Source: Gemmatimonadota bacterium
GTDB lineage: Bacteria > Latescibacterota > UBA2968
Length of the DNA stretch: 44,329 nucleotides
Reading direction: 5' to 3'
Assembly (NCBI GenBank): GCA_026706845.1
Contig: JAPOXY010000085.1
Span: 1 to 44,329 of the forward strand
Below the pieces are notes generated by a model that was not told the DNA's origin, did not search any database, and worked only from the letters and a program-made list of their open reading frames with translations. Shown here piece by piece: positions 12,400 to 32,060 of this stretch; position 1 is the stretch's first letter, and every line of letters begins with the position of its first letter. Both the position numbers and the translations under genes were made by a program.

Positions 12400-13335
12400 T
12401 CACTCGTAACGCAGCGCGTCAACCGGATTTCTGCGCGCATTCTTTAAGATGAGAAATCCTACGGTGGTCCCGGTAATGAACAGGGTTAATAATCCCGTGC
12501 CCGCAAATAGGGTGATTTCCGCCTGTGTTCGATAGGCAAATGATTCTAACCATTGGCGAATGCTCCAGTAGGCGATGGGGAGAGCAATCGCATTTGATAT
12601 AACGACCAGGAACAAAAATTCTTTTAAGAATAATCGCAAGATATTGTACTCTGAGGCACCTAATACCTTTCGGATTCCAATTTCTTTTGTGCGTCGCTCA
12701 ACCATGAATGAGACCAGGCCAAGTAGTCCCAAACAAGAGATGAGAATGGCCAATGCAGAGAATGCGCTGAAAACATGACTCAACTGAATTTCTTTCGCAT
12801 AGTTTGTGTGGTCCAGTTTTTCGTCTAAAAATGCATAGGTAAAAGGTCGTTCGGGTAGTAGTTCCTTCCACATTTGTCCAATAAATTGAAGGGTTTCACG
12901 CATATTTTGAGGGGCAATTTTGAGATACAGAAATTTCATCGAACCCTGTCGGAAGACCAGGGTGCGAAAGGATTGATTAAATTGGAGCAGGCGAGCTGTT
13001 GCGCGACCTTTTGGCGATAGTGGATGAATATTTCCAGATACCTGCAATGCGAAATGATCATCCCAAATATCCTGGCGAGGATTGAACAGCGAGGTGATAC
13101 TCCCTGTTTGTGGATCAATAGATGCTATGTCGCTTCCCTTATGCTTATTGCATAATGAACATGAAAGCGCGAGATTTTCAGAGATTGTTTGCCCACCGTG
13201 TTTTTGGGCAATGATGTGATCAATTTGGTGTGTAGAAAATGAAAATGATTGTGGAATAAGACAGTATTCGCATAGTTCATTAGCACGTTCAATAACCTGA
13301 CTACGCAGATTGGTGGGAATATATGATGAACTCAT
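12400..13335 (-). CDS. Chimeric ORF: HNH endonuclease fused to an FtsX/MacB permease C-terminus
   Basis: Residues 1 to about 122 are an HNH nuclease domain: a zinc pair C22/C25, the core HQIDH (36-40), N54 and a second pair C59/C62 followed by NKHK. Residues from about 125 to 311 match the C-terminal part of the neighbouring permeases: MKFLYLKI, LPERPFTYAFLDEKLD, RRTKEIGIRKVLGAS (215-229), three membrane helices and the final NPVDALRYE. The switch occurs near 12,965 inside what should be the end of the HNH domain (GRATARLLQFNQ). About 600 permease residues are missing. The ORF remains open across the join. The nuclease half looks complete in its active site; the permease half cannot transport alone. 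The HNH start overlaps the upstream gene's stop by one base. Confidence 0.85.
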   Translation of the reverse strand: MSSSYIPTNLRSQVIERANELCEYCLIPQSFSFSTHQIDHIIAQKHGGQTISENLALSCSLCNKHKGSDIASIDPQTGSITSLFNPRQDIWDDHFALQVSGNIHPLSPKGRATARLLQFNQSFRTLVFRQGSMKFLYLKIAPQNMRETLQFIGQMWKELLPERPFTYAFLDEKLDHTNYAKEIQLSHVFSAFSALAILISCLGLLGLVSFMVERRTKEIGIRKVLGASEYNILRLFLKEFLFLVVISNAIALPIAYWSIRQWLESFAYRTQAEITLFAGTGLLTLFITGTTVGFLILKNARRNPVDALRYE

Positions 13336-27921: not shown

Positions 27922-30360
27922 CTACTCATCTCGCAGTGCGTCAACTGGATTGGCGCAGGCCGCACGCCAGGCTTGTCCGCCCACGGTGATGAGCACAATT
28001 CCCAGTGTCAATAGCCCTGTTGCAATGAACATGAATGGCTCCAGGTTGATACGGTAGGCGAAATCATTGAGCCAGGTGGACATGAGATAGTACGCCACTG
28101 GCCATCCGATTACGTTGGCTATGATAGTTAGCCACAGGAAATTGCGGGTTAGCAATAGGATGATATTTCCTTCCGTAGCGCCGAGTACTTTGCGAATGCC
28201 GATCTCTTTGGTGCGCTGTTGTGTGGCAAATGCGATCAATCCGAGCATTCCCAAACAGCTTATAAAGATGGACAGCGCGGCAAAAACCCCGCACACCTTT
28301 TGCAGGGTTATCTCCGACTGGTAATACGCATCGAGCACTTCGTTGAAAAATTGATACTCAAAAGGCCGGTCCGGCAAAAACTGCTTCCACACGCTTTCCA
28401 GCGCGGCGAGTTGCGCTTTCAGGTCGCCGGGTGCCAGGCGCACGGCGATTCGGTTCAAACTGGTGGAGTTTTGCAATATCATGGGTGCAATGCCGTGGTG
28501 CAGCGACTGGTTGTGGTAATCCTTAACCACGCCGATTACATGTATCTGAAACGGGCCATCTGTATAAAAAAAGGACTTGCCCACAGGATCGTCCCATCCG
28601 AGTTCCCGTGCGACTGTTTCATTGATCAATGCGGAACTTTCCCATTTGTTTTCGTCGATTTTGCGGAAGCCAGGCGGCATACCAACAAGGCTCCTGCCCG
28701 ATGCAATGGATAATCCAAACAGATCGAGATAATTGTCATCAATGCCGTTCCAATAAAGCTTGAATGTCGTATCACCATGCCCTTCGGCGCGCAAAATGAG
28801 TCTGTCCGGACCGATCTGTCCAGGCGTCATGTGAAATGCCGACGCCTTCAACACTCCCGGTTGTGTGTGCAATTCACTGAGGATTGTTTGCGCCTGTGGT
28901 CGCAGTCCGCGATCTCGCAAAAAGACCGGCAGAATGACGGTGTGTTCTTTTTTGAATCCCAGTTCTTTGGTGCGCACGAATGAGAGCTGACTATACACCA
29001 CCAGCGTCGTGATGATTAAGACTACGGATACACCGAACTGTAGCACAACCATTATCTGATTCATACTCCTGCGCTGAGACCGCAGCGAGCCTCTTAACGC
29101 GCGAATCGGCTCGAATGCAGACAAGACAAATGACGGATAGCTCCCGGCGAGCAGGCCCGTGCCCAACAGTACGCATAACGAGAGCGCCAAGACGAATACT
29201 GAACCCGCGTCGGTCAAATGCAGATCAACGTCCATGAATTCATTAAAGAAGGGCAGTGCGTCGGAGGCAAATAATACCGCCAGCACGCCTGCTAATAAGA
29301 CGATGAGCAGGGACTCGCCCAAAAATTGACCCATCAATTGCAGCCGTGTCGCACCCACGACCTTGCGCAGGCCAACTTCGCGCAGCCGATTGGCTGACCG
29401 CGCCGTTACCAGGTTGATGTAATTGATGCAGGCGATCAATAGCACGAGCAGTCCAATGAATAGCAGCGTATAGCAGCGCGTGATATCCCCGGCATTGATC
29501 TCCGCTGTGCCGTAATCCTGAATCGAGTACAGGTGGATGCGGTCGAGTGGTTGTAAATAGAAATCATAGCGTTCAGGACCGGCAAGCTGGTGATCGGCTG
29601 CAAAAGCGTGTAGTTTTTTTTGTAGTTCAGCAACATCGGCTCCCTGACGCACCAGTACATAAGTCCGCAACGGTCCGATGAACCAGGTCGAGGGCCACCC
29701 ATCCCATACCTGCTGTCGCCATCGGTTTTCCGGATATTGTTCCGATGGTTGTGGATATGTGGTGGTCAGAAAGTCGAACTGTAGCTTGTCATTTGATGTC
29801 TTTGGTTGGTCTTTCAGGATACCGGTAATTGTGAAATCGCCCTTAAACCACTTGTAGTTAATATTGACAGTTTTGCCTATCGGGTCCTCATTGCCGAATA
29901 GCTTGTGCGCCAATGTCTGGGAGAGAAACGCGGTATGGGGATCGTTGAGTCCGGTTTTGGGATCGCCGACTACCATTGGTAGGGTAAAAACATCGAATAT
30001 CTCCGCATCGGTTATGCACACGCGCGTATTGAAACCGTGCTCCTCGTTAGATGCCCACATGCCTCTGACGAGCATCCGTGTCACTGCCTCAACTTCGGGG
30101 AATTTGTCGCGCAGATGCGGAGCGACGGGCTTTGTCCCCAGGTCGTAGCGCTCGCCGCTGACATCCTTGATTTTTCGGATGACTCTGTAAATGCGGTCGC
30201 TCTTTTCGTGGTGCTGGTCAAAACGAAACTGATAACCCACATACAATACCGCCAGCAACATACACGCAATACCCACAGCCAATCCGAGGATATTCAGAAT
30301 TGAATAGAAGGCGTGCCGGCGCAGATTTCTGATTCCAACGGTGAGGTAATTCCAGAGCAT
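27922..30360 (-). CDS. FtsX/MacB-type ABC permease D
   Basis: This 812-residue inner-membrane protein has two MacB periplasmic domains and two FtsX domains. Motifs are NRLREVGLRKVVGATR in the first half and QRTKEIGIRKVLGAT in the second, ending NPVDALRDE. The ATG at 30360 has GGAGG upstream. It is divergent from the ECF sigma factor gene across 236 bp holding a tandem 21-bp repeat, so it is a good candidate target of that factor. It is intact. The closest relatives are permeases A-C in this window, with no ATPase nearby. Confidence 0.9.
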   Translation of the reverse strand: MLWNYLTVGIRNLRRHAFYSILNILGLAVGIACMLLAVLYVGYQFRFDQHHEKSDRIYRVIRKIKDVSGERYDLGTKPVAPHLRDKFPEVEAVTRMLVRGMWASNEEHGFNTRVCITDAEIFDVFTLPMVVGDPKTGLNDPHTAFLSQTLAHKLFGNEDPIGKTVNINYKWFKGDFTITGILKDQPKTSNDKLQFDFLTTTYPQPSEQYPENRWRQQVWDGWPSTWFIGPLRTYVLVRQGADVAELQKKLHAFAADHQLAGPERYDFYLQPLDRIHLYSIQDYGTAEINAGDITRCYTLLFIGLLVLLIACINYINLVTARSANRLREVGLRKVVGATRLQLMGQFLGESLLIVLLAGVLAVLFASDALPFFNEFMDVDLHLTDAGSVFVLALSLCVLLGTGLLAGSYPSFVLSAFEPIRALRGSLRSQRRSMNQIMVVLQFGVSVVLIITTLVVYSQLSFVRTKELGFKKEHTVILPVFLRDRGLRPQAQTILSELHTQPGVLKASAFHMTPGQIGPDRLILRAEGHGDTTFKLYWNGIDDNYLDLFGLSIASGRSLVGMPPGFRKIDENKWESSALINETVARELGWDDPVGKSFFYTDGPFQIHVIGVVKDYHNQSLHHGIAPMILQNSTSLNRIAVRLAPGDLKAQLAALESVWKQFLPDRPFEYQFFNEVLDAYYQSEITLQKVCGVFAALSIFISCLGMLGLIAFATQQRTKEIGIRKVLGATEGNIILLLTRNFLWLTIIANVIGWPVAYYLMSTWLNDFAYRINLEPFMFIATGLLTLGIVLITVGGQAWRAACANPVDALRDE

Positions 30361-30494
30361 ATCGGGCCTCCGTCTCTATTGCGAGGTAAAAGTACAACGG
30401 GTTATACGATTATGAAGCAAAAATTGTGCCGGAAAAGTCAAATGCTGATATAACAACAGGTTACAAAAATCACCTGAATTTGACGTCTTATAAA

Positions 30495-30536
30495 GTGTCC
30501 GATTTTGATACAGTGGTGTCCGAAAATGAACACCTG
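30495..30536. promoter_or_regulatory. Two abutting 21-bp direct repeats (operator-like)
   Basis: 30495-30515 and 30516-30536 both begin GTGTCCGA, share TGA at positions 12-14 and end in TG. The period is exactly 21 bp, two helical turns. The second copy is nearly palindromic (GTGTCC, six bases, GAACAC). The site lies between permease D and the sigma factor gene. No other GTGTCCGA pair is visible elsewhere in the window. Binding by a regulator is inferred. Confidence 0.5.
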
Positions 30537-30596
30537 GTCACCGCACTTAAGCTGTGAAAAATTCGTGAACCGTATGCCAAAAACTGAATCTATTAT

Positions 30597-31781
30597 ATGA
30601 ACGCGCGAATTGGGGTACCTCTGATGAATGATTCATTACCGGGCGACAAGACTCTGGTCGATAAAGCCTGTGGTGGCGATGAGAGAGCATTTGCCGATCT
30701 GATTAACCAGCACCGATCTCTGGTGTTTGGGGTTATACGGGCTGTGCTGCAAGATGCTGATGATACCGAAGATGCCACGCAAGAGACATTTATTCTTGCC
30801 TATCGGAATCTCAACCAGCTCGATGATGTTGGCAAGTTCTCATCCTGGCTTTATACAATTGCGCGCAACGTGGCTCTCAAATGGGTGAGAAAGCGAACCC
30901 TTGAGGCACGGGGATTATCAAGGGTGCAGGAATATCAACAGCTCGATTTTTTGCATCCTGAGAAAGTGGTGGAGTTACAGTACTTATCTGCTCTGAAGCG
31001 GGCTTTCAAATTGCTCTCTCCGGCGGATCGGATGGTCACTACGCTGTTTTATCTGGTCGGATTACATCAGAGTCAGATTGCCAGTATCCTCGGTATTCCG
31101 GTGGGTACTGTCAAGAGTCGGTTACACAGATCGCGAAAACAACTGAAAAGGAGGCTTTTAGTCATGGGAAATGGAACACTTGTAGATCATGAAAATCAGG
31201 AAGATTACGGACGCAGAGTTATTGGTGGAATGAGAGGGGTTATCCACTGGCAAAAATTGATCCAGAGCGATGGATTGGCAGATTGGCGACCCGCAAAGGG
31301 ACATACCGAAGCGTCTTTGCATCGCGTTTGGACGCGCACGGACGATGGTATCGTCGGTGAAGCAGGACCCTCAAGTGACAACGACTCTCCGCTTATTATA
31401 GGTGATTCTTCCTGGGGAAGTTATGAACTGTCGCTTCTCATTACGCCCATTTCTGGCGGCAATGCTCAGGTTTTCTTTCGAATGTCCGAAGACGAACGGT
31501 GCTGGTATTTGCTGGATTTCTTATTGGGCTGGCGGGCTGTCGCCATTAGCAAGGTTACTCCCGAGGGGCTAACAAAGCTCAGTGTGGTCAATTATCCCAT
31601 TGAGCGCGGACAGGAATACGATGTGCAAATCGCCGCCCGGGGCGCGTCTCTTACTTCATATATTGATGGCAAGTTGGTCAATCAGGTGACCGATTTTAGC
31701 TATCAATCTGGACCGATTGCGCTGAATGTGTGGGAATGCAAAACGGCTTTTCGAGATCTCCGATTCCGTCTTTTGCATTGA
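30597..31781 (+). CDS. ECF sigma factor fused to a DUF1080/LamG-like domain
   Basis: This 394-residue protein has two parts. Residues about 25-185 are an ECF sigma-70 factor: region 2 with LQDADDTEDATQETFILAY, and region 4 with a helix-turn-helix, SQIASILGIPVGTVKSRLHR. Residues about 210-394 resemble a concanavalin-like beta-sandwich of the DUF1080 type: GLADWRPAKGHTEASLHRVW, DSSWGSYELSLLI, NAQVFFRMSEDERCWYL, and FRDLRFRLL at the end. No membrane helix or anti-sigma domain is visible. Such folds bind carbohydrates or are exported hydrolases, so a sugar-sensing or protein-contact role is possible but unproven. An alternative start is ATG 30624. It is divergent from permease D. Confidence 0.85.
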   Translation: MNARIGVPLMNDSLPGDKTLVDKACGGDERAFADLINQHRSLVFGVIRAVLQDADDTEDATQETFILAYRNLNQLDDVGKFSSWLYTIARNVALKWVRKRTLEARGLSRVQEYQQLDFLHPEKVVELQYLSALKRAFKLLSPADRMVTTLFYLVGLHQSQIASILGIPVGTVKSRLHRSRKQLKRRLLVMGNGTLVDHENQEDYGRRVIGGMRGVIHWQKLIQSDGLADWRPAKGHTEASLHRVWTRTDDGIVGEAGPSSDNDSPLIIGDSSWGSYELSLLITPISGGNAQVFFRMSEDERCWYLLDFLLGWRAVAISKVTPEGLTKLSVVNYPIERGQEYDVQIAARGASLTSYIDGKLVNQVTDFSYQSGPIALNVWECKTAFRDLRFRLLH

Positions 31782-31791
31782 ATCCTTCAAT

Positions 31792-31820
31792 AAAAAAAGG
31801 AGACCGGATGATCGGTCTCC
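31792..31820 (-). terminator. Rho-independent terminator of the DUF6785 operon
   Basis: GGAGACCG (31799-31806) pairs with CGGTCTCC (31813-31820) over a 6-nt loop. On the minus strand seven T residues follow (31798-31792). It also lies just after the sigma factor stop codon, where on the plus strand it may serve as a weaker terminator. Confidence 0.88.
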
Positions 31821-32060
31821 TTAGCCCTGAGTGCGCTTGTCTCTAAATGTGGCGATTCCAAATATGATTGCCGCTGCTACGAGTATTCCCAGGGTCCAAT
31901 TTGAAGGTAAGGATAATGCAGGTACAAGTATCACTATAAAAACTCCAAGAGGACCTATAAAACGACGTAAAGATATTTGACCTTTTCGCCATTTTATGTA
32001 TCCGATTACTTGCAATGCAACCAGAATGCCTATGGCGAGGATCAGCAAGATTATATACAT
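31821..32060 (-). CDS. Small membrane protein, third gene of the DUF6785 operon
   Basis: This 79-residue protein is mostly membrane: a segment at about 1-21 (YIILLILAIGILVALQVI), a short basic cytoplasmic loop with KWRKGQISLRR, then two further hydrophobic stretches (about 34-50 and 55-69), ending FRDKRTQG. The start at 32060 has AGGAGAGG upstream. It begins 22 bp after the DUF6785-like gene and is followed directly by the operon terminator. I do not recognise the family. It could be an accessory subunit of the transporter-like proteins encoded upstream, judged only by linkage. Confidence 0.75.
   Translation of the reverse strand: MYIILLILAIGILVALQVIGYIKWRKGQISLRRFIGPLGVFIVILVPALSLPSNWTLGILVAAAIIFGIATFRDKRTQG

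Follow-up and report, generated by a model that had tools for sequence, protein, structure and literature searches.

A DUF1080-fused ECF sigma factor and a sigma-54-type permease unit probably form two independent switches in one intergenic region of a Latescibacterota genome

We identify an ECF sigma factor fused to a C-terminal PF06439 (DUF1080) domain in an uncultured Latescibacterota genome, divergent from a MacB/FtsX-type permease gene. We propose that the shared intergenic region carries two independent switches, one firing leftward through sigma-54 into the permease unit and one rightward through an ECF-type promoter into the fusion gene, whose product would be gated by its own tail (probability about 0.7). 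The window, that is, the whole stretch of DNA analysed, is a 44,329-nucleotide contig (C85) of the host genome (G000; 5.46 Mb in 279 contigs). In the public genome collection, the closest relatives that bear a name come from uncultured Latescibacteria/Latescibacterota, and their fusion proteins are 94% and 92% identical.

The joining of a sigma factor to a PF06439 domain, read from motifs in the initial annotation, is confirmed. Within the longest open reading frame (30597-31781, plus strand, 394 residues), profile searches place sigma-70 region 2 at residues 35-101 (30699-30899; PF04542, Sigma70_r2, E 1.9e-17) and region 4 at residues 132-183 (30990-31145; PF08281, Sigma70_r4_2, E 6.7e-13); region 3 is absent, as in ECF sigma factors, and TIGR02937 matches at 90.3 bits (cut-off 42.9). 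The PF06439 domain (DUF1080 / 3-keto-disaccharide hydrolase, CBM66-like; 31248-31769, residues 218-391) aligns over profile positions 2-187 of 187 (E 3.7e-11), at 43.9 bits against a curated cut-off of 26.8. Its sequence also matches the levanase CBM66 beta-sandwich in the PDB (E 6.3e-8; profile E 6.9e-7), in keeping with the concanavalin-like extension first described, and weakly the putative glycosyl hydrolase 3hbk (E 0.001). The structure prediction proposed with that annotation was less informative: AlphaFold models of the whole fusion and of the tail alone were of low confidence (mean pLDDT 50-59 over the best part of the tail, 30 when the tail was modelled by itself), which makes them unsuitable for a fold search; no pocket or sigma-tail interface is seen in them, and the CBM66 match stands by sequence.

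As initially noted, the fusion contains no membrane segment (the highest Kyte-Doolittle mean over 19 residues is 1.2). The tail carries no signal peptide, the sigma domain being the N-terminus, and because there is no hydrophobic segment the tail should sit in the cytoplasm. Translation probably begins at ATG 30624, giving a gene at 30624-31781 (385 residues), rather than at ATG 30597, since the latter follows the -10 element by only 4 bp and, in relatives, 1 bp is missing between the two codons; a Shine-Dalgarno-like GGGGT (GGAGT in several relatives) is found at 30612-30616. The gene stops just before an intrinsic terminator-like hairpin (31797-31822, minus strand) of the convergent DUF6785/DUF6784 unit, with no further gene on its own strand. 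No anti-sigma gene was found beside it, its neighbours in the window being the permease and the DUF6785 protein.

Intact fusions occur in 9 of the 64 Latescibacterota genomes surveyed, as ten copies. Orthologues in the same genus (G000, G001, G002, G006, G007 and G010) are 91-95% identical; more distant ones are found in G017 (71%) and in G041 and G045 (48-49%), and the second copy in G001 is a 41% paralog. The G009 copy is broken by an assembly gap, and the G011 copy has decayed, its sigma part carrying stops and frameshifts while the tail frame is still intact. Four further same-genus genomes (G003, G004, G005, G008) gave no tail-profile match at E 1e-20. No full-length fusion was the top match in 246 additional genomes from the group of a Planctomycetota-labelled record, where the top full-profile matches were sigma-only; a scan of public genome contigs beyond Latescibacterota-like records likewise returned sigma-only top matches, with rare or diverged fusions still possible.

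Across four comparisons within the genus, the tail has a dN/dS of 0.08-0.14 and the sigma part one of 0.19-0.44; the tail is therefore maintained by selection, and by this estimate purifying selection is stronger on it than on the sigma part. Its core (GW/VVN/YIDGKLVNQ) is conserved, and several genomes encode standalone cousins that bear a signal peptide. The tail resembles these secreted cousins from their mature N-terminus onwards (EDYGR..IGGM.G.I.W), a pattern that would fit the attachment of a secreted domain to the end of a sigma factor. In a tree of the tail domain the fused copies cluster but are poorly resolved (support 59/0). One secreted cousin (L049:6438-7772) is itself joined to a GDSL/SGNH hydrolase.

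The fusion gene is preceded by a predicted ECF-type promoter with a GAAC-containing -35, GTGAACC-N17-TCTAT (30565-30593, plus strand). Each of the ten intact fusions, the most divergent at 41% identity, has the GTGAACC-N17 motif in front, with TCTAT, TCTAC or TCATAT as the -10; the 48% and 41% identical fusions retain it where DNA farther upstream has no evident similarity, and the G011 pseudogene keeps the GTGAACC half. Because this promoter is conserved at every intact fusion, we consider it probable that the gene autoregulates, the promoter presumably being recognized by its own product. Genome-wide pattern searches, the source of all whole-genome motif counts given here, returned one exact GTGAACC-N17-TCTAT match in G000, before the fusion gene, two in G001, both at fusions, one each at the fusion in G002, G010 and G017, and two in G006, one of them at the fusion. 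A wider ECF regulon was considered and rejected: with one mismatch allowed, the 25 sites in G000 show no clear excess, because the ECF-less genomes G003, G005 and G008 give 19, 18 and 11. These motif searches found no ECF target other than the gene itself, and the most economical reading is that the gene regulates itself and has few if any further strict-motif targets.

On the other side of the intergenic region, the divergent gene at 27922-30360 (minus strand) encodes the permease reported initially (MacB_PCD E 1.4e-35, FtsX E 1.7e-23), the first gene of a leftward, putatively sigma-54-dependent unit. It is ADOP-like, related to TIGR03434 (E 1.3e-94) but not a strict member, at 318 bits against a 622-bit cut-off. 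Elsewhere in the window, one open reading frame (12400-13335, minus strand) combines an HNH endonuclease domain with an FtsX permease end and looks like what is left of a permease, fused to a different gene.

A sigma-54 -24/-12 promoter of the permease is predicted at 30416-30431 on the minus strand, CGGCACAATTTTTGCT (GG-N10-GC), with GG and GC kept in seven aligned same-genus loci. The repeat lies 63 bp from it and comprises two 21-mers, likewise read on the minus strand: GTGTCCGATTTTGATACAGTG (30495-30515), a degenerate enhancer half nearer the sigma-54 promoter and read as serving it, and GTGTCCGAAAATGAACACCTG (30516-30536), an imperfect palindrome that is perfect in G001 (GTGTCC-N6-GGACAC). 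Their positions and abutment are as first annotated, but as repeats they are looser than was thought, agreeing at 13 of 21 positions with only the 8-mer GTGTCCGA exact; two occurrences of that 8-mer in 44 kb, against 1.35 expected, are an ordinary frequency.

The genome search suggested by the initial annotation did uncover further copies near permease genes. The exact 18-mer GTGTCCGAAAATGAACAC is present at eight sites in the host genome; a ninth site has a variant, GTGTCCGAAAACGGACAC. As a 39-bp tandem pattern, the element has 9 sites each in G000 and G003, 6 in G005, 2 in G008, 7 in G001, 13 each in G002 and G007, and 4 in G017; G011, G041 and G045 have none, and a reversed control pattern gave zero sites in any genome searched. 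Among 35 element loci of distinct sequence, 30 have a sigma-54 promoter 62-64 bp away that scores 9-12 of 12 and never lies on the other side, against a background expectation of about 0.0009 promoter per locus; many of these loci are orthologous between genomes and so do not represent 35 independent events, and, same-genus loci being closely related, their conservation partly reflects shared ancestry. A MacB/FtsX homologue lies at most 1.4 kb downstream in 27 of the 35, and at one locus (L066) the element drives a beta-propeller protein gene ahead of the permease. An ABC ATPase gene stands under the element and a sigma-54 promoter in G000, G002 and G005 (L068, 1678-2352, 98% identical in G002 and G005; also L213 and L227). 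As read by eye, at two loci (L209 and L225, in G008 and G017) the element precedes a plain ECF gene, with a gene for a membrane-fusion-like protein behind it, and at the G008 locus the sigma-54 promoter is 74 bp from the element.

The host genome encodes rpoN and about 20 strong bEBP (sigma-54 activator) domains, and no bEBP locus has a copy of the element, or a permease homologue, closer than about 1.5 kb. Given a GG-N10-GC promoter and upstream palindromic sites at conserved spacing, the pattern of sigma-54/bEBP control, the repeat is almost certainly a sigma-54 enhancer element, and in the window it is oriented towards the permease and away from the ECF gene.

Comparison of related loci indicates that the two units are separable. 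At the syntenic locus of G003 the methyltransferase and permease genes are still present to the left and the DUF6785 gene to the right, as are 126 bp at 90% identity to window 30412-30537, from the sigma-54 promoter through the end of the second repeat. Homology stops at about 30537, and the ECF fusion is replaced by a toxin-antitoxin-like pair (L226:1617-2274) made up of a Gp49/HigB-like toxin gene with an HTH gene. The permease beside the ECF gene is gone in G007, where this regulatory region points at a methyltransferase gene instead, and G017 has a 147-residue permease remnant downstream of the ECF gene and no element at that locus. At the level of whole genomes, G003, G005 and G008 have the element without the ECF fusion, and G041 and G045 the reverse. 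Repeat and permease thus make up one module, and the ECF gene with its own promoter a second.

This bears directly on the proposal of the initial annotation, a one-component sugar-responsive sigma factor acting through the 21-bp repeats to control the divergent permease array. The divergent pairing of fusion and permease, seen in the window and also in G001, G002, G006, G010 and G009, fits that proposal, but the enhancer is found at many permease loci with no such ECF gene nearby and in genomes that lack the ECF, the permease has no GTGAACC-N17-TCTAT promoter upstream, and the G007 neighbour of the ECF gene is a methyltransferase. In G041, G045 and the G001 paralog the fusion lacks both repeat and permease linkage, an outcome that the annotation had itself named as refuting its model. 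We consider control of the permease array by the fusion very improbable, and we have rejected the repeat as an ECF operator, since the element persists in ECF-less genomes and at the G003 locus.

We propose instead that, leftward, an activator presumed to be of the NtrC type would bind the two tandem palindromic sites at 30495-30536, and sigma-54 holoenzyme at 30416-30431 would then transcribe the permease unit, which would belong to a permease regulon spread across the genome. Rightward, the ECF gene would be transcribed from 30565-30593, with its own product as the simplest candidate for the sigma factor involved, and the DUF1080/CBM66-like tail would gate the sigma domains in the cytoplasm on a carbohydrate-like ligand, replacing an anti-sigma factor. 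C-terminal extensions that replace anti-sigma factors are established for other ECF groups, and ECFs with extensions usually lack an adjacent anti-sigma gene (PMC8999054). By analogy with the ECF41/CorE extensions described there, we give about even odds to the tail being a cytoplasmic ligand-responsive gate, in which both ligand sensing and the direction of gating are presumed. A more specific version, a cytoplasmic one-component sigma factor that senses a sugar (or 3-keto-sugar), has its own gene as main target and has captured an exported glycan-recognition domain as an intracellular gate, is offered tentatively.

Other roles for the tail must be weighed against gating. The tail could be an active cytoplasmic enzyme of the 3-keto-glycoside hydrolase type whose sigma part mainly drives its own synthesis, a serious rival because relatives of the tail include enzymes, the 3-ketoglycoside hydrolases of PF06439 (PMC9007349), as well as binding modules (CBM66). 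The tail is the better conserved half of the fusion, the strict promoter motif occurs almost only at the fusion gene, and in G011 the tail reading frame has outlasted the sigma part, all of which suit an enzyme. However, the tail scores 44-46 bits against 148-164 bits for three other PF06439 copies in the host genome, its nearest solved relative by sequence is the binding module, and characterised relatives are thought to be periplasmic (PMC9007349); we regard catalysis as unlikely. The tail might also serve protein-protein interaction or stability with no ligand sensing, as proposed for the TPR-bearing ECF42 proteins, and Latescibacterota do fuse ECF sigma factors to TPR, HEAT, TPR plus HATPase_c and beta-clamp-like domains. 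Against this, the tail core is common to the signal-peptide-bearing cousins, which suggests a conserved ligand site and not a sigma-specific interface, and we hold an interaction module to be improbable.

Several known systems come close to this locus. ECF41 (SnoaL-like), ECF42 (TPR) and ECF238/CorE likewise combine ECF domains with a soluble extension and no adjoining anti-sigma gene (PMC8999054), but the PF06439/CBM66-like extension is not named in the sections of that 2022 review considered here; PF06439 stands where ECF41 has its SnoaL-like C-terminal domain. ECF52/SCO4117 also unites a sigma factor and a carbohydrate-binding domain in one protein, with a zinc-finger anti-sigma domain and membrane helices between them that put the sugar domain outside, whereas the fusion has neither zinc finger nor membrane helix. 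By profile and PDB sequence match, the tail belongs to the same domain family as the PF06439 3-ketoglycoside hydrolases and the levanase CBM66, which are mostly exported, while this copy sits behind a sigma factor without a signal peptide. DUF1080 is also found on another signalling protein, the Ser/Thr kinases of Planctomycetota, where it is periplasmic, across the membrane (PMC11032199), whereas the fusion tail should be cytoplasmic. Sigma-54 promoters before FtsX/COG0577 permeases and an ABC ATPase have been described in other classes (PMC12316311); the Latescibacterota loci have a defined 39-bp tandem enhancer whose spacing is fixed. Within the literature collection searched, no paper brings the ECF and DUF1080 terms together. 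ECFs with extensions and sigma-54-controlled FtsX-like permeases are thus known, and the present locus contributes a PF06439 extension and a lineage-specific sigma-54 version.

Other unusual ECF architectures were encountered in these genomes. The host genome encodes an ECF with a C-terminal DNA polymerase III beta sliding clamp-like domain (L051:6466-7848, contig C82; PDB 7ybd, E 2.6e-5), G015 a similar one (L052:5137-6495, contig C33; DNA_pol3_beta_3, E 4e-4), and several relatives have ECF matches in open frames of similar length (463-465 residues). This clamp-like architecture recalls phage T4, whose late sigma factor gp55 works with the clamp gp45. Further Latescibacterota ECFs (L021, L031 and L032) are fused to TPR, to HEAT repeats and to TPR plus a histidine-kinase-type ATPase domain.

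In ECF sigma factors, sensing of the outside usually runs through anti-sigma factors in the membrane. If our reading is correct, a soluble ECF whose sensor is a sugar domain in the same protein would make a compact ligand-gated sigma factor, and if it also senses a sugar and targets itself, ligand binding would set a self-amplifying switch. The 39-bp element places scattered orphan-type permeases and a single ABC ATPase gene in one regulon. Because this ATPase (L068, L213, L227) shares the element and a sigma-54 promoter with them, it is a candidate for the missing ATPase of the permeases that have no adjoining ATPase gene.
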